This document shows, one piece after another, positions 444-20,279 of a stretch of 64,000 nucleotides of DNA. Numbering within the stretch: the stretch's first letter is position 1; every line of letters starts with the position of its first letter. The translations under genes were made by a program, and so were the position numbers. Source of the stretch: Haloterrigena turkmenica DSM 5511 (GTDB taxonomy: Archaea; Halobacteriota; Halobacteria; Halobacteriales; Natrialbaceae); the NCBI RefSeq assembly GCF_000025325.1, contig NC_013743.1:2418001-2482000 (forward strand), given 5' to 3'. The notes under the pieces were generated by a model, which was not told the DNA's origin, searched no databases, and worked only from the letters and a program-made list of their open reading frames with translations.

Positions 444-1118
444 TCACTGGAACAGTTGGGCGTCCTCCTCGCCGAAGATGATCGCCATGGCCTCGTCGTT
501 GAAGAACGGCTGGCTGTCGCGGGCCTCGAGTTCGTCGGCGATCTCGCCGGCGCCGCCGACGAGGATGGCGTCGGTCGCACACTCCTCGGCGCAGGCCGGC
601 CCCTTCTGGACCTCTTGGCGTTCGCGACAGCCGGTGCACTTGTCCATGATGCCGCCGGTGCCGAAGATCTGGGCCGCGCCGTCGTTGCTGTCGGGAAACT
701 GCGGCGCGCCGAACGGACAGCCCGATAGACAGTACTGGCAGCCGACGCAGAGGTCCTCGTGGACCGATACGAAACCGTCGTCTTCCTTCTGGAGGGCGTT
801 GGTCGGACAGACCGAGACGCAGGGCGCGTTCTCGCAGTGGTAACACTGCATCGGCAGGCTGGTTTCGCCGGGGTTCTCCCCCGCGGCCAGCCGGCCGGTC
901 TTGTCGGCGTTCTCGCCCTGCGGGCCGGCGACGCCCTCGGCCATGGTCGTGATGTCGATGCGCTGGTTGTCGATCTCTCGGTCCCAGGTGCGCTTGCAGG
1001 CGACGACGCAGCCGCCGCAGTCGATGCACGCCTCGACGTCGGGGAAGATCCGCATCCCCTCGCCGGTGCTCATGACGCCTTGACTCATCACCTGGCCGGA
1101 GGATTCGTCCTGTGTCAT
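444..1118 (-). CDS. fdhB: Four-cluster ferredoxin (electron-transfer) subunit of formate dehydrogenase
   Basis: This 224-residue protein has 16 cysteines in four ferredoxin-type groups: C31/34/37/41, C92/95/100/104, C124/127/130/134 and C161/164/176/180. That is the pattern of the beta subunit of DMSO-reductase-family enzymes, which passes electrons from the molybdopterin subunit to a membrane or soluble acceptor through four [4Fe-4S] clusters. Its ATG overlaps the stop of the large subunit by ATGA, so the two are translationally coupled. It has no signal peptide. In the family this subunit is carried across the membrane with its Tat-bearing partner, and the same is expected here. The family assignment is secure; the formate specificity rests on the neighbouring large subunit. 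Confidence 0.88.
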   Translation of the reverse strand: MTQDESSGQVMSQGVMSTGEGMRIFPDVEACIDCGGCVVACKRTWDREIDNQRIDITTMAEGVAGPQGENADKTGRLAAGENPGETSLPMQCYHCENAPCVSVCPTNALQKEDDGFVSVHEDLCVGCQYCLSGCPFGAPQFPDSNDGAAQIFGTGGIMDKCTGCRERQEVQKGPACAEECATDAILVGGAGEIADELEARDSQPFFNDEAMAIIFGEEDAQLFQ

Positions 1119-4100
1119 AGTTGCTCACCGCCGTTCTCCATGTCCCACTCGCGGACGTCGTACTGCTTCTGCCTCCCGAGGCCGTTGCTGTCCTGCGGGT
1201 AGTCGATGAACTCCATGTCGAGGTCGTCGACCACGCTCTGGGTCGCCTTCTGGACGTGGACGACGCCCGACTTCGTCTCCTGCATCTGCGTCTCGGCGTC
1301 GAACCCGCTGGGCGTGATGATGTTCGCGCTCTCGCCGATCGCCAGCGGCTCGGTGCCGTCGGGCCAGTTCGGCGTCCTGTCCTCGCCGTGGAAGACCCCG
1401 CCCCAGTGGTAGGGCAGGAAGACCTCCTCGTCGTTGACGCGGTTGGTCACGTTGGCCTTCACGAGGATCGACCCCTTGTCGGCCGACGTGACGACGACGT
1501 GATCGTCGCCGCCGACGACGTCGAGTTCCTCGGCCAGACTGGGGCTGATCTCCGCGTACATGTGCGGCTGCCGGTCGGCGGTGTACTTGTTGTTCCGCGT
1601 CTCGGCGCCGCCGCCCTGATGTTCGACCTGTCTCCCTGACGTCATGATCACGGTCCGGCCGCTCTCGAAGTCGCTGCCGAGCTCCGTGTGGACCGCTGCG
1701 GTCGCCTGCTCCTGTACGCTCGCGTTGTTCTGATCGAGTCGCCAGAAGTTGGTCTGCTCGCCGTTGGCCGGCCACTCCTCGACCAGATCGGGTCGCGGAC
1801 TCTCGACGGGCTCGCGGTGGACCGGCACCGTGTCGATGAAGTTCCAGACGACCGCCCGGGCCTTTCCGCGCCCCGTCGGCGGGTCAGGCTGGGCGGCGTC
1901 GTACTCCTCGAACTCCGCGGGATCGACGTCCACCTGATCGCCGTACTGTTCGTTGACCGCCTGAGCCGCCTCGTACACCGACACGTCCTCGTCGAGGGCG
2001 GCCTGAACCGGCAGCGTCTGGCTCGAGGCCTCGGTGGGATCGTCGGGCAGAATCGTCGCGTAGCCGGGATACGACGGAACGCCCTGTATCTCCTGGCCGT
2101 CCCACCACGGCGCCTCGAACGACTCGGCGATCAGGTCCAGTCCGTCCTCCCCCTGCTGGTCGACGGTCTCCTGCAGGGGGTACTCCTTGTCGACGTCCAT
2201 CTCCGTCCACTCCTGGGGCGTCGGAGCCTGCTGGCCCCAATTTACCCGGAAGTCGTGGCCGCCGTCGCGGGGATCGGCCTCCTTCGTCCAGATGATCGGC
2301 GACCCGGGGTGGTCGCCGCCCCAGTAGGGCCAGGGGAGCGACCAGTAGTCGCCGTCGACGGGCGTGCCGGTGTTCTCCGCCCGCAGGTCCTCGGTGCTGA
2401 ACGCCCAGTCGTACTCGTGGTGTTGCTGGAGTTTCTCCGGTGGCTGCTGGTAGCCGATCGAGCGCACTCCGAGGTTGATCTCCCGGAGCGCCTCCTCGTA
2501 GGAGCTCCGGCCGTTGTGTTGCTCCGGGCCGGACCCCCAGTCGAAGTGCTCGCCGAAGCCCATGTAGTCGGCCAGTTCCTGCATGATCTGGAGGTCGGGC
2601 TTGGAGTTGTGCGCCGGCGTCGCGACGGCCTCGCTCCACTGGACCGACCGATGCGAGTTCGTGACCGACCGGACGTGCTCGTACTGACTCGAGGCCGGCA
2701 ACAGGAGGACGTCCGCGTCGTCGGGCAGCGTACTGGAGATCGCCGGGAAGACGTCGACGACGACCAGCAGGTCCAGTGCCTCCATGGCCCGTTTCATCTT
2801 GTCCATCTCGCTGATGGAGTTCGCCGAGTGCCCCCAGAAGAAGGCCATCTTCAGCGGGTTCGGCTGATAGAGGTTCGAGTCGAGCAGTCGGTCCTCCTGG
2901 CCCAGCGCGGCCTCGTACCAGCGGGCGACGGTCAGCCCGCGCTGGAACATCATCGACTGGGGATCCGGCTCCTCGAGCGGGGCGTCCTCCTGGAGCCCCT
3001 CGTCCTCGCTGCCTTCGCTGTCACCATCGCCACCGCCTTGCTCCCCGCCGTTCGGCGATTCGCCCTCGTCCTCCGAGTCGGATTCTCCCTCTTCGACTGA
3101 GGCGGGGACCTCGAGGCCAGCCCACATCTCGTTGGGCATCCGTTCGAAGTTCCGGTAGAGGTCCTCGAAAGAGATGCTGCCGCTGGTCCAGGGACTCTGA
3201 TCCCAGACCGACGACCAGTGCTCCCACGAGCCGGGCGCGTCGACGCCGTAGTAGCCCGGCAGGATGCTCGCGTCGACGCCGAGGTCGGTCGCGCCTTGGA
3301 CGTTGGCGTGGCCGCGCATGACCTGCAGGCCGCCGCCTGATCGGGCCGCGCTCCCGGTCGCGAGGCTAAAGAGGGCGTATGAGCGAATGTTCTGGGTGCC
3401 GTTGTTGTGCTGGGTGCCGCCCATCGCCCACTCGACCTGAATGTGGGGCGAGTTCTCGACGATCAGGTCGCCGATCTCCTCGAGATCCTCCTGGTCGATC
3501 CAGGTGATGTCTGCGACGGTCTCGAGGTCGTACTGATCGAGTTCGGCCTCGACGTCGGGCCACCCCATCACGCGGTCCCCGAGGAACGTGTCGTCGAGCC
3601 CATCCTGCTCCCGGACGTAGTTGAGCAGGCCGAAGACGAGCGCGACGTCCGTCCCCGGCCGGAGTCGGTGGAAGTAGTCGGCGTGGGCCGACGTCTTCGT
3701 GTACCGGGGATCGATCGAGACGATCGTGCCGCCCCGCGCCTGTCCCTCGAGGATGTGCTGCATCGCGATCGGATGGGACTCGGCGGGGTTCTGCCCGAGG
3801 ATGATCAACAGGTCGAAGTTGCGGTAGTCGTTGATCGTGTTCGTCATCGCGCCGAACCCCCAGGTGTTGGCGAGCCCGGTGACGGTCGGCGAGTGGCAGA
3901 TCCGCGCCTGGTGGTCGACGTTGTTCGTCCCCATGAACGCCGCGAGCTTCCGGCTGGCGTAGGCCGCCTCGTTCGAGTGGTGGGCGCTGCCCAGAAGCAT
4001 CACGCTCTCGCGGCTGTACTCCTCGACGGTCTCCTCCCAGGTGTCGACGATCTCCTGGTAGGCCTCGTCCCACGTCACCCGCCGCCACTCGCCGTCTTCC

Positions 4101-4450
4101 TTTCGCATCGGGTGTTTCAGCCGCTTGGGCGAGTGCTCGGTCTCGAGGATGCCCGCACCCTTCGAGCAGAGCGAGCCGTTGTTGATCGGATTCTCGAACC
4201 ACGGCTCCTGAGCGACGAAGGAGTTGCCGTCCTTGACGGCCTTGAACCCGCAGCCGACGGCACAGTAGTTGCAAATCACCTTCGCCGTCTCTTCCCCCTC
4301 TGGAACGCCGTCGTCCTCCTGTTCTTCCTGGGTGCCGAGGACGTGGCCCGTCACGCCCCCGCCGAGAAAGATCCCGCCGGCGAGCGCGCTGGCCTTCATG
4401 AACGAGCGCCGGTCGAGGTCGATCGTGACCGGCTCGTCCGCCGCGCTCAT
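1115..4450 (-). CDS. fdhA: Formate dehydrogenase large subunit (molybdopterin, Cys type)
   Basis: This 1111-residue member of the molybdopterin oxidoreductase family oxidises formate to CO2. A Tat signal is visible (RRSFMK at residues 14-19, then a hydrophobic h-region), so the enzyme is expected to act outside the cytoplasmic membrane. The N-terminal [4Fe-4S] ligands are C60, C63, C67 and C95. The segment ARICHSPTV at about residues 183-191 aligns with the active site of FdnG-type formate dehydrogenases, with Cys185 in place of selenocysteine followed by the catalytic His186. An acidic Ser/Gly/Glu insert at about 452-498 is absent from ordinary homologues and looks like a disordered surface loop. 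The C-terminal third has the usual pterin-binding domain. Alternatives are another molybdopterin oxidoreductase, but the Cys-His motif favours formate. It is the first gene of a leftward operon. Confidence 0.85.
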   Translation of the reverse strand: MSAADEPVTIDLDRRSFMKASALAGGIFLGGGVTGHVLGTQEEQEDDGVPEGEETAKVICNYCAVGCGFKAVKDGNSFVAQEPWFENPINNGSLCSKGAGILETEHSPKRLKHPMRKEDGEWRRVTWDEAYQEIVDTWEETVEEYSRESVMLLGSAHHSNEAAYASRKLAAFMGTNNVDHQARICHSPTVTGLANTWGFGAMTNTINDYRNFDLLIILGQNPAESHPIAMQHILEGQARGGTIVSIDPRYTKTSAHADYFHRLRPGTDVALVFGLLNYVREQDGLDDTFLGDRVMGWPDVEAELDQYDLETVADITWIDQEDLEEIGDLIVENSPHIQVEWAMGGTQHNNGTQNIRSYALFSLATGSAARSGGGLQVMRGHANVQGATDLGVDASILPGYYGVDAPGSWEHWSSVWDQSPWTSGSISFEDLYRNFERMPNEMWAGLEVPASVEEGESDSEDEGESPNGGEQGGGDGDSEGSEDEGLQEDAPLEEPDPQSMMFQRGLTVARWYEAALGQEDRLLDSNLYQPNPLKMAFFWGHSANSISEMDKMKRAMEALDLLVVVDVFPAISSTLPDDADVLLLPASSQYEHVRSVTNSHRSVQWSEAVATPAHNSKPDLQIMQELADYMGFGEHFDWGSGPEQHNGRSSYEEALREINLGVRSIGYQQPPEKLQQHHEYDWAFSTEDLRAENTGTPVDGDYWSLPWPYWGGDHPGSPIIWTKEADPRDGGHDFRVNWGQQAPTPQEWTEMDVDKEYPLQETVDQQGEDGLDLIAESFEAPWWDGQEIQGVPSYPGYATILPDDPTEASSQTLPVQAALDEDVSVYEAAQAVNEQYGDQVDVDPAEFEEYDAAQPDPPTGRGKARAVVWNFIDTVPVHREPVESPRPDLVEEWPANGEQTNFWRLDQNNASVQEQATAAVHTELGSDFESGRTVIMTSGRQVEHQGGGAETRNNKYTADRQPHMYAEISPSLAEELDVVGGDDHVVVTSADKGSILVKANVTNRVNDEEVFLPYHWGGVFHGEDRTPNWPDGTEPLAIGESANIITPSGFDAETQMQETKSGVVHVQKATQSVVDDLDMEFIDYPQDSNGLGRQKQYDVREWDMENGGEQL

Positions 4451-4714: not shown

Positions 4715-6853
4715 ATGAAGGTCGGGAGTTTCGTCTGTTCCTGTGCCGACACGTGTGACATCGACCTCGAGGCGGCCCGGGAGGGGGTCGAGGGCGTCGA
4801 CGTCGCGGCGAGTTCGCGGCTGCTCTGCGAGGACGGCCTGCCCGCGATGGAACAGGTGATCGACGAGTACGACCTCGACCAGCTGATCGTCACCTGCCCC
4901 GAGCGGCGAGTCCAGCGGAAACTCGAGCGCGTCGCCGGAGCGCAGGGGGTCCACCCCGACGCCGTCTCGTTCGTCGACCAGCGCGAGGGTGCGGGCTGGG
5001 TCCACGACGAGGCCGGCGCGACGGCGAAGACCGCCCGCATGGTCAACGCCCGGCAGGCCGGCCTCGAGGCCGAGTCCCCGTCGCGAACGCTCACGGCGGC
5101 GGCCGGCGACAGCGTCGCGGTCGTCGCCGATCCCGACACCGCCGCGGCGCTCGCCGACGACGCCGACGTGACGCTGATCGCCGACGGCGAGGAGTACGTC
5201 GATAGCGCGGCTGCGCTCGACGACGTGACCATCGAACGCGGGCGCGTCGTCGACGTTGACGGCCGCTTCGGCGAGTTCGAGGTCCGTCTCGAGTCCCAGG
5301 TCACCGAGGAGTGTATCTCCTGTATGAAGTGCGTCCGCGAGGGCCCGGACGGGCAGGTGACGCGCTATCCGGTTGATATCGACCCCGACGCACCCGACGG
5401 CGCGTGGACGGACGTCTGTCCCACCGACGCGATCGAGATGAGCGGCGTCCAGCGGACGCTCGAGTTCGACCAGATCGTCTACCCTGCGGCGAACCGAGAG
5501 ACTCGGGGCGGCCGCGTCGGCTTCTACACTGCGCCGATCGACGCGGCGACGATCTCCGCGGTGCGAAAGCACCTCGGCGGCATCGAAAAGCCCGCTCACC
5601 TCGATCTCGAGATGGACGTCTGCGCGGCCGGTGACTCGAGCCAGCCGGGCTGCAACGAGTGCGTCGAGGCCTGCCCGCACGACGCGGTCGAGCGCTCGCG
5701 GATCGACGAGGTCGCGTTCCACGAGGAGGCCTGCCAGAACTGCGGGGCCTGCACCAGCGCCTGTCCGACGGGCGCGACGCGGCTGCGCGAGCCCTCGAAC
5801 GAGCGCATCGCCCGCGAGGTCGAGGCCCTGCTGCGACCGACCGACGAGGAAGGAGGCTGGCTCCTGAACCGCTCGGGTTCGGACGTCGAATCGCCCATCG
5901 TCGCGTTCGTCTGTTCCGAAGAGGCCGACGACGCGCTGGCGGAGTACGGCCGTCTGGCCGCCGCGGGCAAGGCCGCAGTCGAGTACCCGCCGATCCTCCC
6001 CGTGCGCGTGAACTGTACCGATACCGTCGGCGAGGCCCACGCGATGCACGCGCTGGCCTGCGGCGCCGACGGCGTCGCCGTCGTCGGCTGCGGCGGCGAC
6101 TGCCTGCACTCCGGCCCTGATCCGAAGGCCGACCTCGTCGAGCGCCTCAACCGGGCCAGCAGCGACCTCGAGCTCGGCGACCGGTTCGCGTTCTTCGCGC
6201 CGGATCCAGACGAGCCGGGCGCCTTCGTGGAGGCGATTTCGACCTTCGCCGTCGAACTCGAGCCCTCGCCAATTTCGGCCGGCGAGTACGAGGCCACCGG
6301 CGGAATCGATGACGGGAGGGAGAGCCCGCCGTTCGACAGCCACGGCTGGACGTTAGAGAGCGTCCGGGCGATCCTCGAGCACGTCGACCCCGACCGCGAG
6401 GTGATTCGAGGGCTGAAGGACTTCGGCCGGATGGAGGTCGGCGACGGCTGTACGCTCACGCCCACGTGTTCGAACCTCTGTCCGACCGACGCGATTCGCC
6501 GCGACGAGGAGACGGCGACGCTGGAGTTCAACCACGAGCAGTGCGTCAACTGCGGCACCTGCGAGGAGGGCTGCGTCGAGGACGTAATCGCGATGCGCGA
6601 CGGCCTCGACCTGACGCTGCTGCCGGAGAACCGCCCGGACGCGGACGATCCCGCCTGGGTCGCGGTCCACGACGGCGAGATGCGCGAGTGCAATCGCTGC
6701 GGGAAGCCCTTCGCGAGCGAGGGCACCGCACGGAAGATCCAGTCGGAGGTCGGCGACGCCGTCGCCGGACTCGTGCCGGGTGCACAGGGGAGCGTCTTCG
6801 AGTACTGCGGCGACTGTCGCGCGCAACTGCTCTACGACCGCGGCAACGGCTAA
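4715..6853 (+). CDS. HdrA/MvhD-like multi-cluster ferredoxin fusion protein
   Basis: This 712-residue protein is built from redox modules. Residues 1-75 resemble the N-terminus of heterodisulfide reductase HdrA (C8, C10, C14, C38, C61). Residues 130-170 are a short Rossmann-like stretch with no GxGxxG FAD motif, so the flavin domain of HdrA seems lost. Ferredoxin cysteines follow at C200/203/206 with C235, and at C340/343/346/350 with further Cys at 303-320. Residues about 395-510 match the MvhD/FlpD iron-sulfur subunit (CGADGVAVVGCGGDC). Another ferredoxin-like set is C585/C589 and C610/613/616/620. Two CxxC knuckles near 669 and 702 resemble rubredoxin or zinc ribbons. It lies divergent to fdhA and 32 bases before a TorD chaperone gene, so electron transfer linked to formate oxidation is a fair inference. 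Partner and substrate are unknown. Confidence 0.75.
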   Translation: MKVGSFVCSCADTCDIDLEAAREGVEGVDVAASSRLLCEDGLPAMEQVIDEYDLDQLIVTCPERRVQRKLERVAGAQGVHPDAVSFVDQREGAGWVHDEAGATAKTARMVNARQAGLEAESPSRTLTAAAGDSVAVVADPDTAAALADDADVTLIADGEEYVDSAAALDDVTIERGRVVDVDGRFGEFEVRLESQVTEECISCMKCVREGPDGQVTRYPVDIDPDAPDGAWTDVCPTDAIEMSGVQRTLEFDQIVYPAANRETRGGRVGFYTAPIDAATISAVRKHLGGIEKPAHLDLEMDVCAAGDSSQPGCNECVEACPHDAVERSRIDEVAFHEEACQNCGACTSACPTGATRLREPSNERIAREVEALLRPTDEEGGWLLNRSGSDVESPIVAFVCSEEADDALAEYGRLAAAGKAAVEYPPILPVRVNCTDTVGEAHAMHALACGADGVAVVGCGGDCLHSGPDPKADLVERLNRASSDLELGDRFAFFAPDPDEPGAFVEAISTFAVELEPSPISAGEYEATGGIDDGRESPPFDSHGWTLESVRAILEHVDPDREVIRGLKDFGRMEVGDGCTLTPTCSNLCPTDAIRRDEETATLEFNHEQCVNCGTCEEGCVEDVIAMRDGLDLTLLPENRPDADDPAWVAVHDGEMRECNRCGKPFASEGTARKIQSEVGDAVAGLVPGAQGSVFEYCGDCRAQLLYDRGNG

Positions 6854-6885: not shown

Positions 6886-7518
6886 ATGAGTGTAAACCAA
6901 CAAGCGCTATACGAAGCACGGCTCGAGCTGGTGAACTTCCTGATCGACGCGTTCGCGGACGTGCCCAGCGAGGCGTTCGTCGAGGCAATTCTCTCGGAAG
7001 ACGTCCTGTTACCCGACGAGGGCGCCGGTGAGAAACTCGACGAGGGGTTCGCGACCCTCGAGTCGTTCATCGAGGCGAACCGCGATCGGGAGGTCGAGGA
7101 CGTTCGAGACGACCTCGAGCGCGAGTTCACCCGGCTGTTCGTCGGCCCGCGACCGCCGATCCTCCCCCACGAGACCTACTACCGCGAGGACACGGACTTC
7201 CGCGGCGCGGGACTGGCGAAAGTCGAGGCCAGCTACGGCGCCGCGGGCTGGTCGCCGCCCGAGGAGTACCCCGAGGAGAACGACTACGTCGCCGTCGAAC
7301 TCGCTTTCCTCCGCTATCTGATCCGCCAGCAGCGGGCCGGCTACGAGGAGACCGTCGGCTACCAGCGCGTCTTCCACGAGGAACACCTCTCCGAGTGGAT
7401 CCCCGCCTTCGCCGCCGACGTTCGCGAGACCACCGACGAGCGGTTCTACGAGGCCGTCGCTTCGATCCTCGAGGGAACCGTCGCGTTCGAGGAGGAGATC
7501 GCGATGAGCACGGCCTGA
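6886..7518 (+). CDS. TorD/DmsD-family molybdoenzyme chaperone
   Basis: This 210-residue, largely helical acidic protein has the mark of the TorD/NarJ chaperone family: the conserved segment FVGPRPPILPHETYYRE at about residues 85-101, followed by helices rich in Leu and Phe (ELAFLRYLIRQQ). Such proteins bind Tat signals and load molybdopterin before export. The obvious client is the Tat-signal-bearing formate dehydrogenase encoded divergently 2.4 kb away. The chosen ATG is 32 bases after the stop of the HdrA-like gene, which suggests co-transcription. The reading frame is open further upstream but overlaps the HdrA-like gene there, so the longer form is unlikely. Confidence 0.82.
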   Translation: MSVNQQALYEARLELVNFLIDAFADVPSEAFVEAILSEDVLLPDEGAGEKLDEGFATLESFIEANRDREVEDVRDDLEREFTRLFVGPRPPILPHETYYREDTDFRGAGLAKVEASYGAAGWSPPEEYPEENDYVAVELAFLRYLIRQQRAGYEETVGYQRVFHEEHLSEWIPAFAADVRETTDERFYEAVASILEGTVAFEEEIAMSTA

Positions 7519-8140: not shown

Positions 8141-8497
8141 TCACCACGGGCGCGGATCGTCCGGATCCGCGGACTCCGTCTCCTCGCCCTCGAGGAACGC
8201 TCGCGCGAACAGGTCGACGTGCATCGCGAGGACGTCCGCGGGCTCGAGCCCGTACGCGCCGGCCTGCTTCTCGAGGAAAGCCGCGAGGTCGTCGCTCGGA
8301 TAGTGGTGAATCGCGCCATCCTCGACGGCGAACTCGACCTCGGTCGCGTCGGCGACGAGGTGTTCGATCTCGAGCAGTGCCTGTTCGGCCTTGGTCTCGA
8401 GGGCGTCGTCCTCGTCCATGAGGCGGTTATCGCCCCAGTCGGCCGCGGCCTCGCGGAACCGGTCGCTGACGGGGACGGTGAGTCGGTCGTCGGTCAT
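8141..8497 (-). CDS. Haloarchaeal conserved-type hypothetical protein
   Basis: This is a 118-residue acidic protein with no membrane segment and no recognised domain. The start at 8497 (MTDDRLTVPVSDRF) overlaps the stop of the upstream membrane-protein gene by ATGA, which is why it is preferred to the start five codons earlier. The middle (ALLEIEHLVADATEVEFAV) looks like a helix-strand fold, and the end is a short disordered acidic tail. The two genes form a small leftward operon. Function unknown. Confidence 0.6.
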   Translation of the reverse strand: MTDDRLTVPVSDRFREAAADWGDNRLMDEDDALETKAEQALLEIEHLVADATEVEFAVEDGAIHHYPSDDLAAFLEKQAGAYGLEPADVLAMHVDLFARAFLEGEETESADPDDPRPW

Positions 8498-8754
8498 CTC
8501 TCGGGCGGCCACTCCTCCGGTGCGGGGTCGGGTTCGCCGAGCGCGCCGAACGAGGCGATCAACAGGGCGAGGAACGCGACGATGACGAGCAACCCCATCA
8601 GGCCCCCGAGGCCGTTTTGGCCGACCCAGTTGTCACCGATGATCGGTCCCATCTGATCGACGATCCGGGCCCCGATCACGACGGTCCAGCCGATGGCGAA
8701 CAACAGCCCCGCCGTGACGAGCGGGTTGTGTTCGATCGCAGTACGGATACCCAT
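8494..8754 (-). CDS. Small two-helix membrane protein, hypothetical
   Basis: This 86-residue protein has two hydrophobic segments, at about residues 14-35 (LVTAGLLFAIGWTVVIGA) and 52-72 (GLMGLLVIVAFLALLIASF), and a charged C-terminal tail. The ATG at 8754 is preferred to the GTG at 8775, because the extra seven residues add nothing recognisable. It is translationally coupled to the following gene. Haloarchaeal genomes carry many such short membrane proteins of unknown role, and none is specifically recognised here. Confidence 0.6.
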   Translation of the reverse strand: MGIRTAIEHNPLVTAGLLFAIGWTVVIGARIVDQMGPIIGDNWVGQNGLGGLMGLLVIVAFLALLIASFGALGEPDPAPEEWPPER

Positions 8755-11480: not shown

Positions 11481-12290
11481 TCACGACGCGTCGTCCGCGA
11501 GCGCCCAGTCCGCTTTCTCGGCCGCCGTCTCGAGGGGCACGAACTCCCAGTCGGCCGTCTCGGCGATGGGTTCGTCCTCGCCTGCGAGTCCGACGACGAC
11601 CATGCGATCGGCGAAGAACATCGAGTTGCGGTCGATCTCGGCGAGGCGCTCGCCGGGACCGGTTCCGGTGCCGTTGAAGAAGTCGACGTCGATTCCGCGG
11701 TCGCGCTGGAACTTCTGGATCACGTGGGCGGGCACGCTGCCGACGATGCCGACCCAGTCGCTCCAACCGGCGGCGTCCGCCACGACCGCCGCCGGGTGCT
11801 CGAGTCGGCGGAGCGCGCCGTAGGTGATGGCGGTCGTCATCTCGTCGGCATCACCGCCGTGGGGGCCCGATGCCGGTTCGGTCGTATCCGCTGCGCTCGA
11901 CGCGTCCGACGGCGCCGCACCCATCGGGTGCATCGACTCGGTTCTGCGGTCGCTCGCTCCCGCCGTCGAATCCGTCGGCGCGCTCGAGGCGCCGCCGCTC
12001 GATCCGGTGCCCTCGGTCGGAATCCCGACGGGCGTGCTCTCGCCCGTCTCGGGGACGTGTGGGGCCGGTGTGCGGTCCGGTTCGTCCGTCTCCGCGCCGT
12101 CATCCTCGGTTTCGGTCGCCGGCTCTGCGTCCGCCGTCCCCTCCGTCGTCCCCGCCGCTGGCGAATCGGGTTCGTCCGCCGGCTCCGCCGCTCCGTCGTC
12201 GCGCCACAGCCAGTCGCCGCGGTTCCCCGACTCCGTCTCGTCCTCCTCAGCGCCGGTCTCGAGGTCGTCGAGGTCGATCCGGTCAGTCAT
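11481..12290 (-). CDS. Haloarchaeal protein with disordered acidic N-terminus, downstream of AOR
   Basis: This is a 269-residue protein. Residues 1-150 are low-complexity (Asp, Glu, Ser, Thr, Pro) and likely disordered. Residues about 153-269 form a compact domain that starts with TAITYGALRRLEHPAAVV and contains FNGTGTGPGERLAEIDRN and RMVVVGLAGEDEP. I recognise it only as a domain common among haloarchaea without assigned function. Its ATG overlaps the AOR-like stop by eight bases, so the two are translated from one message and may work together. Confidence 0.7.
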   Translation of the reverse strand: MTDRIDLDDLETGAEEDETESGNRGDWLWRDDGAAEPADEPDSPAAGTTEGTADAEPATETEDDGAETDEPDRTPAPHVPETGESTPVGIPTEGTGSSGGASSAPTDSTAGASDRRTESMHPMGAAPSDASSAADTTEPASGPHGGDADEMTTAITYGALRRLEHPAAVVADAAGWSDWVGIVGSVPAHVIQKFQRDRGIDVDFFNGTGTGPGERLAEIDRNSMFFADRMVVVGLAGEDEPIAETADWEFVPLETAAEKADWALADDAS

Positions 12291-14127
12291 CGTCGCTCAC
12301 CTCCGCTGGAGGGTCCGTTTCGCTGCCGGACGCCGGATCGTCTCCCTCAGGAATCGGCGTCGCGTCGTCGACGACGTCCGCGAGGCCGAGCCGTTCGATC
12401 GTCTCCCGAGTCGGTCGGCCCTCCGAGTCCCAGCCGCGATACCGGTAGTAGCGCTCGAGCAGCGCGTCGAACCGGTCGGGATCGAGGCCGTCGCCGCTCG
12501 CGTCGCCGTCGCTCCCGTCGTCCGCGTCGGCTCGGGGCTCGAGCAGGGCGTCGGGCAAGGCGTCGTCCTCGCGGGAGAAGCCCTCGCGGACGTTGAACAG
12601 CCGGATCAGGGTCCAGATCCGCTCGCCGGCGGTCGCGAGGTCGGCGCGGCCGACGTCGTAGCCGACCGCGGCGAGCCACTCGGCGCCGAGGTCCTCGGAG
12701 AGGGCGTCCTCGAGGAAGTCGTCCGCGATCAGGCTCCAGAGGACGGCCCGGCGGTTTTGCTCGCCCGCGACGGCGGCGACGCGGGCGCGGTCGTCGGGCC
12801 AGGCGCGGCCGACGGCCTCGGACTCGACGGGGCGGGCGCGGCGGTGGCAGGCGCCGCGGTCGCTGGTCGCGTAGGCCAGCGCCATCGTCTCGGCGCCGCG
12901 GGGGTCGTACGACGAGTAGTCCATCCCCTTGACCGTCGGGATGAGGTCCTCGCCACCGAACGCGGCGGCCGCGGCGTCGATCCCGTCGGCCAGCGCGTCG
13001 CCCAGCGGCGTCTCGCGGGTCGCGATCTCGCGGATCACGTCCTGCGCGGCGTCCTCGTCGCCAAAGGAGAGGTCGCGCTCGAGCAGCCCCTCCTGGCTCG
13101 CTCGGACGGCCCACGCGACAGCATTGCCGGCGCTAATGACGTCCACGGCGAGCTTGTCGCAGACCGCGCCCAGCGTCGCGACGGCGTCGAAGTCGTCGAT
13201 TCCGAGACCGGCTCCGAGGACGATCGGCGCGGCGCCTCGCGGGACCGACTCCCCCTCGTTGGTATCGACACGGAAGCCGCCGGCGACGGCATCGTCCTCG
13301 CGCTCGCGCCCGTGTGACCGCTCGCGGACCGCCTCGATGCCGAGGTCGTCGGCACCGTCGAACCGCCGCTCCTGCCAGCCCCGCGTCGGGAGCACGCCGA
13401 CCGCGTCCGCGACGTCGATCGTCTCGAGGGTCTCGCTGGCCGACTGCCACCGGCCCTCGTCGCTCTCGGCGAAGCGGCGTTCGTAGCGCTCGCGGAGGGC
13501 CTCGAGTCCGGTCGGCGGGTTGCCGCGCGCGACGACGGCCTTCAGGTTCTTCGAGCCCATCACCGCGCCGGCGCCGCCCCGGCCGGCGTGATGGTCCCCG
13601 CCGTCGGCGGCGATGGTCGCGTACTGGACTTCGTGCTCCCCCGCCGGGCCGATACAGGCGACTCCGGCGTCGGGAAACGCCGCGCAGGTCTCCGCGGCAT
13701 CCGCACCCCGAAGCTCCGCCGCCGATTCGATCGTCGCGTCCCCGCCGTCGACCGAGAGGACGACGGGCTCGTCGGCCCGACCCGTGACGAGAACGGCGAG
13801 GTGGTCCTCGAGCGACCCCGCTAACCGCGCCGCGAACTCGCCGCCGCTGTACGAGTCGAGGAAGGTCCCCGTCAGCGGCGACTTCGTGATCGCCGCGTAC
13901 CGCGGCTCGCCGGGGGTCAGCCCCGATACCGGACCGACGACGAACGCCAGCACGTTCGCGGGCGACAGCGGCTCGGTCCCCGCCTCGAGTTCCTCGTAGA
14001 GGTACCGCGCGCCGAGGCCCTTCCCGCCGACGTACCGCTCGAGCCACGCGTCCGGAATCGGCTCGCTGGTGACGGTCCGCGCGGAGAGATCGACCCGAAG
14101 GACGCGCGCCTGCTGCTCACGTGCCAT
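12283..14127 (-). CDS. Aldehyde ferredoxin oxidoreductase-like protein lacking the Fe-S cysteines
   Basis: This 614-residue protein has the domains of the tungsten-pterin AOR family: YVGGKGLGARYLYEEL near residue 30, ITKSPLTGTFLDSYSGGEF near 85, and the pterin-binding GRGGAGAVMGSKNLKAVVAR near 190. The C-terminal domain keeps GACHRRARP near 425. The [4Fe-4S] ligands of the family seem absent. After VGVLPTRGWQERRFDGAD, where homologues have CxxCxxxC, there is SHGREREDDAVAGG. At the fourth ligand (family pattern DSLxxCxF) it reads WSLIADDF. So it probably binds the metallopterin but cannot pass electrons to ferredoxin in the usual way. The start at MAREQQ is chosen because the 21 upstream residues are atypical. 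Substrate unknown. Confidence 0.8.
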   Translation of the reverse strand: MAREQQARVLRVDLSARTVTSEPIPDAWLERYVGGKGLGARYLYEELEAGTEPLSPANVLAFVVGPVSGLTPGEPRYAAITKSPLTGTFLDSYSGGEFAARLAGSLEDHLAVLVTGRADEPVVLSVDGGDATIESAAELRGADAAETCAAFPDAGVACIGPAGEHEVQYATIAADGGDHHAGRGGAGAVMGSKNLKAVVARGNPPTGLEALRERYERRFAESDEGRWQSASETLETIDVADAVGVLPTRGWQERRFDGADDLGIEAVRERSHGREREDDAVAGGFRVDTNEGESVPRGAAPIVLGAGLGIDDFDAVATLGAVCDKLAVDVISAGNAVAWAVRASQEGLLERDLSFGDEDAAQDVIREIATRETPLGDALADGIDAAAAAFGGEDLIPTVKGMDYSSYDPRGAETMALAYATSDRGACHRRARPVESEAVGRAWPDDRARVAAVAGEQNRRAVLWSLIADDFLEDALSEDLGAEWLAAVGYDVGRADLATAGERIWTLIRLFNVREGFSREDDALPDALLEPRADADDGSDGDASGDGLDPDRFDALLERYYRYRGWDSEGRPTRETIERLGLADVVDDATPIPEGDDPASGSETDPPAEVSDDD

Positions 14128-17960: not shown

Positions 17961-18389
17961 CTACTCGGGAGCGTCTCCGTCCGATCGCTCGTCGTTCTCC
18001 GTTCGGGACTGCTCGCCGTCGTCCCCTCGAGACCGTTCCTCGGCGCGGTCTCGAGACGATTCGTCGCCGCGATCGCGGTCGCGAGAACGCTCGCCCTCCG
18101 GCGTCGATCCGACCGTGAGCCGCTCGAGTTCGTTCGGCGCCCGCTTCCGGTTCCGTTTCTTCTTGTGCTGACGGCGAGTGATCGACGTCTGCCGTCGTTC
18201 GACGTCCCACTCCTCGAAGAGGCCGTACTCGTTCATCGTCTCCATTCCGGCGATGGCCGCGGTGAGCTTGACGCCGATCAGCGGAATCCCAGCGACCGAG
18301 ACGATCACGTCCGCACGGAGGACGGCGCCCTCCATGAGCAGCACGTCGAGCACGTCGACGAGCGTCTCTTCGTCCTTTCGCGGTCTCAT
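17961..18389 (-). CDS. gvpM: Gas vesicle protein GvpM (GvpA/J/M family) with long charged tail
   Basis: This 142-residue protein's first 70 residues are a GvpA-type core (ETLVDVLDVLLMEGAVLRAD, then VIVSVAGIPLIGVKLTAAIAG). GvpM proteins of Halobacterium are about 84 residues; here a further ~70 residues of Arg/Asp/Glu/Ser-rich sequence follow, probably disordered. GvpM is a minor, essential protein thought to act in nucleation of the vesicle together with GvpF, G, J, K and L. The ATG overlaps the gvpL stop by ATGA. It is the last gene of the leftward gvp operon. Confidence 0.88.
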   Translation of the reverse strand: MRPRKDEETLVDVLDVLLMEGAVLRADVIVSVAGIPLIGVKLTAAIAGMETMNEYGLFEEWDVERRQTSITRRQHKKKRNRKRAPNELERLTVGSTPEGERSRDRDRGDESSRDRAEERSRGDDGEQSRTENDERSDGDAPE

Positions 18390-19336
18390 GGGTGTGGCTG
18401 GGTATCGGTCGATTCGTCGCCGCCCAGTTCCGGCGCGAACGTGTACGGCGGCCACGGCCCAGTGAACCTGACCTCGAAACCGTCGTTTTCCGCCACGTCG
18501 TCGAGGATCGAGCCGATCGCCTCCTCCTCGTCCTCGTGGGCGAGCAGCGTCAGTCGACAGAGCGTTTCTCCGTCGCGTTCGTCGGCCCCGTCGGCGATGT
18601 CGTCGGACAGCGACGCCGTCGGCGACCGCTCGAGGCTGTGGACTTCCCGCGCGGCGTCCGCGAGTCGGTCCTGTAAATCGGCCGTGATCGACTCGCGGCG
18701 GGCCGCTCGCAGTTCGGTCAGGCGCTGCTCGAGTTTCTTCTCGAGCAGGAACGACGTTCCCGACCCGGAGTCGTCGATCTGGTCGGCGAGTTCCTGTAGG
18801 CGGTCGTCCCGTTCGATCAGCGCCTCGTCGTCGATGGGGTCGATCTCGACGACCTCGACGCGGTACTCCCAGTGGCCCGCCAGCCCCGAGAGCGCGCGGT
18901 CGAGCGTGTCGGACTCCTCGCGGAGCCACTCGCGGACGCCCTCGTCGCCGCCCCGCAGGATCGTGTCGAACTGGAACGGGATCGGCGTCCCGAACTCCTG
19001 GGCGGCCTCGTCGACGACCGTCTGGTGGCGGACGAGCCAGCGCCGAACCTGCGCGAGATCGGCCGAGTCGTAGATCCCGTCGGTCTCGTGGACGACCGCG
19101 CCGATGCCGTCGGCAACCGCAATCGAGACGGGTTCGCCGTCGACGCCGGTCGCTTCGAACGTCGCGCCCTCGTCGGCTCGGACGATACAGTAGAGGTATC
19201 GCCCGTCGTCGATCTCGGGAACCGCCTCGTCGACGGCCTCCTCGAGATCCTCGAACTCCTCGACGCCCTCGAGATCGTCGATGCTCTCGGCGTCGGCGAT
19301 GTCCTCGAGCCGTTCGTCGGACCGTTCGGAGCTCAC
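18386..19336 (-). CDS. gvpL: Gas vesicle protein GvpL (GvpF/GvpL family)
   Basis: This 316-residue protein of the GvpF/L family opens with an acidic ~45-residue extension before the family start ([13 protein letters not shown]). The usual ending [13 protein letters not shown] follows a coiled-coil middle region ([20 protein letters not shown]). GvpL is an accessory protein that, in halophiles, contacts several other Gvp proteins and is needed for assembly. It overlaps gvpK and gvpM by four bases on either side, so translation of K, L and M is tightly coupled. Confidence 0.92.
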
Positions 19337-19677
19337 TCCTCGTCACCTCCGAGCACGGAGTAGCCGGGTTTATTCGTGGCTCGCGGTTCGCCGTGGAGCT
19401 GTTCGATCGCGTCGTTGACCAGCCCGTTCAGGTCGCCGCGCAGGTCGTCGACGCCGTCCTCGATCCCCTCATCTTCCTTGAGCTGCTCGATCTCCGCCTC
19501 GATCGTCGCGAGCTGTTCGCCGAGCCGTTCGATCTCCTCGTCGGCGAGGTTCCCGGACTCCATGCGACGCACGGCTTCGCGCTCCAAGGCGTCCATCAGG
19601 ATCTCCACGACGGTGACGACGAGCGTGACCAGTCCCTGGCGCGCGTCCTCGCCGTCGCCGACGTCGATCTGCGTCAC
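19333..19677 (-). CDS. gvpK: Gas vesicle protein GvpK
   Basis: This 114-residue protein matches the GvpK family over its length: [28 protein letters not shown] is the diagnostic N-terminal helix region, followed by a coiled coil ([20 protein letters not shown]). Its size is normal for the family. It is a minor, essential assembly protein. The start overlaps the gvpJ stop by ATGA and the end overlaps gvpL by the same amount. Confidence 0.92.
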
Positions 19678-20279
19678 GAGTCTCCCTCCGTGTTCGTCGC
19701 TTCCGCTTCGGCCTCCTCTCCGTCGCCGTTCTCGGTCGTTTCGGCGTCCTCGTCGCCGTCGGAGTCAGTCTCGTTCTCACCGTCACCGTCGGAATCGGAG
19801 TCGTCACTGAGCAGATCGTACCCGCCGCTGGTCGGCCGGTTCGGATTCGGCCGCGCGCCGAGGTGGGAGGCGCCGCGATCGGGCATCTCGTAGCTCTTCG
19901 CGCCGTCGTCGCTCGAGTCGTCGTTCGCCTCGTCCGACGCGTCACTCTCGTCTTCGGACCGCTCGTCGGCGGTGGCGTTAACGCCCCGCGTGGGATCGAT
20001 CACCGGATTCGGTCGGTCCATCTCGGCGATTTCCGGGTCGTCAACCGCCGCCGCGACGCGGCGCATGTCGGTGCCTTCGGGGAACTCGAGGCCGTACTTG
20101 GCCGCGGTCTCGAAAGAGGCAATAGCGGCCCGGACCTGCACGCCGAGCAGTTGCGTGTCGCCGATCGAGACGGCGATGTCGGCGTTGATGACGATCCCCT
20201 TGTCGAGCAGCATCTCGACGACCTCCGCGAGATCGGCCTTCTGCCGGCTGGGCTGGAAGTCATCCACCACGGCGATCAC
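19674..20279 (-). CDS. gvpJ: Gas vesicle protein GvpJ with extended acidic C-terminus
   Basis: This 201-residue protein has the GvpA-like core at residues 15-70 ([40 protein letters not shown]), typical of GvpJ. Ordinary haloarchaeal GvpJ proteins are about 110 residues. Here roughly 110 residues of Asp/Glu/Ser-rich tail follow, with runs such as [18 protein letters not shown]. The tail keeps an inner motif, [13 protein letters not shown]. The start overlaps the end of a small upstream frame by 20 bases, and the stop overlaps gvpK by ATGA. Confidence 0.9.

Follow-up and report, generated by a model that had tools for sequence, protein, structure and literature searches.

The window analysed here, by which we mean the whole stretch of 64,000 nucleotides from positions 2,418,001 to 2,482,000 of contig NC_013743.1 of Haloterrigena turkmenica DSM 5511, carries a gene for a member of the aldehyde ferredoxin oxidoreductase (AOR) family that has lost all four cysteine ligands of its [4Fe-4S] cluster. 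The name AOR* is used below for the cluster-free haloarchaeal clade that includes this gene. The limits given for it in an earlier note on this DNA, 12283–14127, are right, although the gene is read on the minus strand (14127..12283; table 1). The predicted protein matches AFOR_N with 216 bits and AFOR_C with 303 bits (cut-offs 29.8 and 27), the two Pfam domains spanning the whole chain, and its AlphaFold (AF2) model, part of which is of low confidence, has the AOR fold (predicted local distance difference test, pLDDT, 75.5; predicted template modelling score, pTM, 0.82). Foldseek aligns the model to 9mqx, 1b25, 9g7j and 1aor with template modelling (TM) scores of 0.81–0.83. The H. turkmenica genome (5.4 Mb, seven contigs) holds eight AFOR_C genes, of which six encode CxxCxxxC and the fourth cysteine; the two without them are the window gene and one on contig C3.

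Alignment with a structurally known enzyme, PfAOR (1AOR), places the four ligand positions where the earlier note had put them: SHGREREDDAVAGG falls on C288/C291/C295 and WSLIADDF on D489–C494. Cysteine stands at Pf288, 291, 295 or 494 in none of the 74 distinct AOR* sequences and at all four positions in 31/31 outgroup proteins, which upholds the claim that the four ligands were lost together. These counts come from 76 rows, 74 of them distinct, with L085 and L088 (broken frames), L033 and L034 left out, while the alignment with the nearest relatives omits L009 (a copy of the window gene), L030 and L031 (partial). The fourth position leaves no doubt: where AOR* has WSLIADDF, its closest Fe-S-bearing relatives show WSMIFCDF or FSMVACDF. 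An alternative set of cysteine ligands elsewhere in the chain was looked for among the 74 distinct sequences and none was found: the cysteine columns common to nearly all AOR* (window C158, C323 and C427) are also cysteine in 9, 27 and 24 of the 31 outgroup rows, and the former cluster loop is free of cysteine in 73 of the 74, the exception having a single one at the E311 position. Misalignment, or ligands placed elsewhere, is ruled out by the alignment together with this check of cysteine columns.

The loss is a property of a whole subfamily, the outcome that a survey of haloarchaea suggested by the earlier note was meant to look for. Relatives were found by a first search in 23 of 41 genomes (the window genome counted in), and scanning named genomes yielded 80 loci: 56 of the cluster-free clade, all of them haloarchaeal, and 24 Fe-S-bearing relatives. 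In a tree built by a quick method and rooted at its midpoint, the 56 cluster-free rows form one clade (Shimodaira–Hasegawa-like approximate likelihood ratio test, SH-aLRT, 100; stem 0.72), whose sister is a group of Fe-S-bearing haloarchaeal AORs. The ratio of non-synonymous to synonymous substitution rates (dN/dS) is 0.15–0.24 in five close AOR* pairs. AOR* is a conserved subfamily of single origin under purifying selection, not a product of decay; the earlier note's argument for selection is borne out by these ratios and by the 74 relatives sharing the loss within one clade.

More than the cluster has changed. Because PEYE has become PRGA and tryptophan stands at the D489 position, the active site is remodelled and not just cluster-free. 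E311 is replaced by Arg in 73/74 sequences, Y312 by Gly in 74/74 and E313 by Ala, Gly or Ser in 74/74, while the outgroup has E/D at 311, Y/F at 312 and E at 313 (31/31 each); the position after the active-site histidine, Pf449, is Arg in all 74 AOR* and in none of the 31 outgroup proteins. The exchange of D489 for tryptophan was considered as part of the same event and rejected, because W or F stands there already in some Fe-S-bearing relatives. On the pterin and metal side, D343 is retained in 74/74, R76 in 71/74 and D338 in 67/74. The second-shell residues of a proposed AOR mechanism, as given in the available part of PMC12096430, are E313, which is central, Y427, T243 and H448; of this set, T243 and H448 are each kept in 74/74 AOR*, Y427 in 71/74 and E313 in 0/74. 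The earlier statement that the tungstopterin-binding segments are kept thus holds for many pterin- and metal-side residues (T243, H448, D343, R76, Y427) and fails where PEYE has given way to PRGA.

The stronger coupling of AOR* is to formate dehydrogenase (FDH). The earlier note, which was right on the loss and its coherence, missed this link although it lies partly inside the window, where the genes for fdhB, fdhA, an HdrA-like polyferredoxin and torD stand about 5–12 kb from AOR*. On contig C3, the genome's second AOR* gene has a NuoF-linked FDH at a distance of 2.8 kb. Five FDH alpha subunits were scored with TIGR01591: one NuoF-linked form and two of about 704–717 residues reach 737–813, above the cut-off of 666, and two with twin-arginine translocation (Tat) signals reach 429 and 462, below it. 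Open reading frames (ORFs) neighbouring the 56 named AOR* loci were clustered in flanks of up to 8 kb, several of which are shortened by contig ends. FDH alpha occurs at 35 loci, the HdrA-like polyferredoxin at 21, YqeC at 20, MobA at 18, a small protein at 17, a TorD-type protein at 12 and NuoF at 10. The R-x-C-H motif, which we take to be the Cys–His active site of FDHs, is present in 35/35 FDH neighbours. At least one FDH-system gene is found at 42 loci, MobA or YqeC only at five and neither at nine, and in 10 loci MobA is immediately upstream of AOR* and divergent from it. FDH or cofactor genes stand at 50/56 AOR* loci, compared with 1/25 in an outgroup AOR control whose loci are mostly of distant phyla and in some cases on short contigs.

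Table 1. Features of the window around the AOR* gene (positions in the 64,000-nucleotide stretch; Pf, PfAOR numbering; aa, amino acids).
Feature	Position	Strand	Basis
AOR*, cluster-free AOR-family protein, 614 aa	14127..12283	minus	Pfam AFOR_N and AFOR_C, Foldseek
SHGREREDDAVAGG, residues 271–284, where CxxCxxxC of the [4Fe-4S] site is expected	13276..13317	minus	Cys at Pf288/291/295 in 0/74
PRGA, residues 296–299, replacing PEYE (Pf310–313); E311, Y312 and second-shell acid E313 lost	13231..13242	minus	residue counts
HRR, residues 428–430; kept active-site His Pf448, then clade-specific Arg Pf449	12838..12846	minus	residue counts
WSLIADDF, residues 464–471, at Pf489–496; fourth ligand C494 replaced by Asp	12715..12738	minus	Asp 74/74, Cys 31/31 outgroup
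DUF7124 protein, 269 aa; acidic low-complexity N-terminus, 111-aa alpha/beta domain	11481..12290	minus	PF23439 133 bits (cut-off 27), model pLDDT 92
fdhA, formate dehydrogenase alpha, type A, Tat signal, RICH active-site motif	1115..4450	minus	TIGR01591 429 bits (below 666 cut-off), motif
fdhB-like 4Fe-4S ferredoxin subunit	444..1118	minus	
HdrA-like polyferredoxin with FlpD domain, conserved in type A FDH loci	4715..6853	plus	
torD, TorD/DmsD/NarJ-family chaperone	6886..7518	plus	PF02613 104 bits
Small conserved protein, 123 aa, neighbour cluster 6 (17/56 AOR* loci), no Pfam match	8141..8512	minus	by-eye assignment

The same coupling is seen across 145 genomes of the order with a completeness of 95% or more. 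With the 45–47% identical Fe-S sister set aside, 69 AOR* genes were detected in 67 of them, and AOR* is also present in G130 and G135, where the DNA was read; a looser search adds G042, G050 and G119, assigned from split matches of 60–69% identity. This gives AOR* in at least 72/145 genomes, and 72/72 also have FDH. With FDH called at E ≤1e-100 to one of three FDH queries, FDH genes occur in 108/145 genomes among the matches listed, including all 72 with AOR*. The AOR* counts are lower bounds because E-value cut-offs lose genes split by insertions. The 15 AOR-bearing genomes without an FDH match were searched again, with AOR* found in none; among the 41 FDH-positive genomes without an AOR* match, 23 were searched again and two more were checked separately. 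An FDH gene is no more than 2 kb away from 17 of the 69 AOR* genes, no more than 10 kb from 52 and no more than 14 kb from 56, versus 8/108 other AOR genes within 14 kb (in FDH-bearing genomes, among the other AORs listed); the Fisher value for 56/69 against 8/108 is 1e-24, which ignores relatedness, the genomes not being independent samples. Where a Tat-exported type A FDH with the HdrA-like gene is present, AOR* is too (35/35 genomes, G130 and G135 included), and it also accompanies NuoF-linked FDHs, a Tat form of 993 residues and a monosubunit form of about 704. Since these FDHs are so differently built, service to the catalytic subunit fits better than a role as electron partner.

FdhD (PF02634), a sulfurtransferase/chaperone needed for FDH maturation elsewhere, was found in 0/145 haloarchaeal genomes, whereas the profile does detect it in control genomes, M. 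jannaschii and E. coli among them. Its absence agrees with a 2023 review (PMC10609526), which states in the part available that halobacteria often encode FDH yet lack fdhD, and which names the proteins for cofactor insertion or sulfuration as unknown. In a bacterium, FdhD was essential for a W-FDH according to PMC13197769, and the available text of two papers on haloarchaeal formate metabolism (PMC5437934 and PMC6176080) contains neither 'fdhd' nor 'aldehyde'. The resemblance of AOR* to FdhD lies in the position of the gene near FDH and, for FdhD, in the maturation role described by the same review (PMC10609526, in part). The two differ in that their sequences are unrelated, with no match of AOR* to the FdhD profile up to E 0.1 (Pfam), and in that AOR* lacks a new conserved transfer cysteine.

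In our preferred reading, to which we give a probability of somewhat under one half (about 0.45), AOR* serves FDH maturation as a carrier or scaffold of bis-molybdopterin and is not itself catalytic. This reading is favoured because the residues that would hold bis-molybdopterin (bis-MPT) are kept while the cluster, which is the electron exit, and much of the acid–base side are lost, and because AOR* occurs together with FDHs that have nothing but the catalytic subunit in common, as well as with MobA and YqeC. Derived from a ferredoxin-coupled tungsten enzyme, AOR* would now be a cluster-free FDH accessory. Its kept residues suggest that it binds a W- or Mo-bis-pyranopterin, that is a bis-molybdopterin cofactor, in the old AOR pocket. 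With the Fe-S relay lost as well as the E311/Y312/E313 side, the cofactor would be held there and undergo no redox reaction; AOR* may then hand it on to MobA, which would guanylylate it, to apo-FDH, into which it would be inserted, or to both, and in this way take over some of the role of FdhD in other organisms. The most doubtful step is whether it feeds MobA, apo-FDH or neither. A chemical precedent for a carrier is the bis-Mo-MPT of the AOR-family protein YdhV of E. coli, which MobA converts to bis-molybdopterin guanine dinucleotide (bis-MGD) that activates apo-TorA, bis-MPT itself not being inserted (PMC9103625, in the part available). The more specific proposal, that AOR* is the missing haloarchaeal maturation factor, a metallopterin carrier that replaces FdhD by holding bis-MPT for MobA and apo-FDH, is tentative and on balance doubtful.

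Several results weigh against these proposals. No new conserved cysteine able to transfer sulfur occurs among the 74 distinct sequences, which argues against AOR* as a full FdhD-like sulfurtransferase, and the model is weak in the remodelled stretches; its low-confidence parts are residues 231–268, 393–407 and 424–441 and part of the former cluster loop. Six AOR* genes share a contig with FDH only at long range (49–218 kb in five, 1.5 Mb in the other), and seven are on contigs without FDH. AOR* was not detected in 36 of the 108 FDH-bearing genomes, chiefly those with the split NuoF-linked form (AOR* in 3/23) and nine with the 704-aa form, so that a strict need of every FDH for AOR* is rejected and other routes must exist. 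Fe-S AORs can also sit by FDH: one of another clade lies in the FDH operon in L125 (G018:C1:394000-412000) and L126 (G148:C1:386000-405000), and in H. turkmenica itself an Fe-S AOR (L003) lies 1.9 kb from an FDH of the 704-aa type (L123, G000:C1:708000-724000). The FDH link alone is therefore no proof of a maturation role, and such pairs would equally fit a metabolic link between AOR and FDH.

As to gene order at these places, L125 and L126 have the string TorD, HdrA-like protein, Fe-S AOR beside a Tat-type FDH and MobA, and a CobW-type GTPase gene stands close to the pair of L003 and FDH in L123. L122 and L124 hold a cassette for NuoF, an FDH of about 755 residues (RLCHSST), a 246-aa protein and another FDH-like protein, 650 aa long, that carries R-x-C-H; most genomes with this split type are without AOR*.

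The view taken in the earlier note, that AOR* is a cluster-free enzyme, is in our judgement unlikely. In that case a W/Mo-bis-MPT centre would still be redox-active and would exchange electrons directly with some other partner, for instance a flavin, a quinone or thioredoxin. DMSO/TMAO reductases without FS0 are molybdopterin proteins that lack a nearby 4Fe-4S cluster and are active oxotransferases; they belong to another fold family and serve as an analogy only. The retention of T243, H448 and nearly always Y427 would suit such an enzyme, which in one variant might turn over a one-carbon compound near FDH, and the few genomes with an Fe-S AOR near FDH suggest that AOR and FDH metabolism may be linked. 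Yet E313, central in the proposed mechanism (PMC12096430, in part), is Ala, Gly or Ser throughout and E311 and Y312 have gone too; no redox partner gene is constant, the FDH neighbours vary in type, and among the annotated neighbour clusters no flavin, heme or thioredoxin gene recurs, bar the NuoF of FDH itself.

It is distinctly unlikely that AOR* is a structural or regulatory subunit which, bound to FDH or to a state of its cofactor, adjusts how stable, active or strongly expressed FDH is and transfers no cofactor. FDH and AOR* do lie on the same strand 23–76 bp apart in G044, G066 and G083, and the DUF7124 gene overlaps AOR* in the window, which speaks for this reading; but AOR* is kept with FDHs of differing subunit make-up, five of the 56 loci have MobA or YqeC and no FDH-system gene, and the invariant pocket residues H448 and T243 would need no keeping. 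Improbable, too, is a non-redox metallopterin enzyme of the hydratase or hydrolase type, with W/Mo as Lewis acid and R311 and R449 as a new anion site: the two near-invariant, clade-specific arginines and the loss of redox relay and catalytic acid speak for it, but no candidate substrate gene recurs nearby, bar those for FDH and cofactor synthesis. A decaying paralogue without function, which the missing catalytic and cluster residues might suggest, is scarcely credible and is ruled out by the dN/dS of 0.15–0.24, with the new residues invariant in 74 distinct sequences and one old clade spread across many families.

Compared with class I WOR/AOR enzymes (PfAOR, 1aor; Haloferax volcanii WOR83, 9q1t), AOR* is alike in fold, in both Pfam domains and in the GRGG region, and shares T243/Y427/H448, R76 and D343; it is unlike them in the absence of the four [4Fe-4S] cysteines, in PRGA for PEYE and in its linkage to FDH genes. 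Class I WOR has one [4Fe-4S] cluster, and a 2026 classification sorts WORs into classes by InterPro domains and describes the metal- and cluster-coordinating residues as highly conserved (PMC13328260, in the part available). By homology, AOR* belongs to the AOR/WOR protein family, but we do not class it among the WOR enzymes, since it lacks the cluster that defines them and one second-shell residue out of four. The AOR* clade passes the domain test without a cluster and may therefore have been taken there for ordinary enzymes. Its nearest clade (99*) consists of haloarchaeal Fe-S AORs (L084 of Halorubrum halodurans, L086 of Haloferax marinum, and L119) that are about 45% identical to it; unlike AOR*, L084 and L086 keep all four cysteines and E313, and none of the three has FDH, MobA or YqeC within the flanks examined. 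YdhV, of the same family, is unlike AOR* in being of the 4Fe-4S type, its isolated form being without a functional cluster (PMC9103625, excerpt), whereas AOR* lost the ligands genetically, and in having an extra cysteine ligand to the metal (PMC12096430, excerpt). We found no report of a cluster-free AOR clade in the open-licence papers searched. As a carrier or scaffold for maturation, AOR* is a concrete candidate for an FDH maturation factor, and some Haloferax and Haloarcula strains have it next to FDH.

The earlier note had coupled AOR* to a haloarchaeal domain protein, encoded by the DUF7124 gene immediately downstream. The 8-bp overlap (ATGACTGA) is real; the coupling is weak, since a DUF7124 copy lies near AOR* at only 17/56 named loci by ORF clustering or 25/56 by tblastn. 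DUF7124 does not co-occur with AOR* in particular, being found in 145/145 haloarchaeal genomes with or without it, and because it is universal and adjoins AOR* at a minority of loci it is rejected as the key partner. Its model gave no PDB match better than E 0.01 and no confident fold match, and no report of DUF7124 was found in the open-licence papers searched. Among 14 control genomes, DUF7124 appears only in Haloferax volcanii in the matches listed, as for a universal haloarchaeal protein.

Two minor observations concern other sequences. The string LXEMCIRDS in the last ORF of L121 (G094 contig 33) is presumably a sequencing-adapter artefact, and the end of that contig may be faulty. In the window, positions 18386–20279 (minus) hold ORFs that by eye resemble gas-vesicle proteins of the GvpL/F and GvpA/J types.

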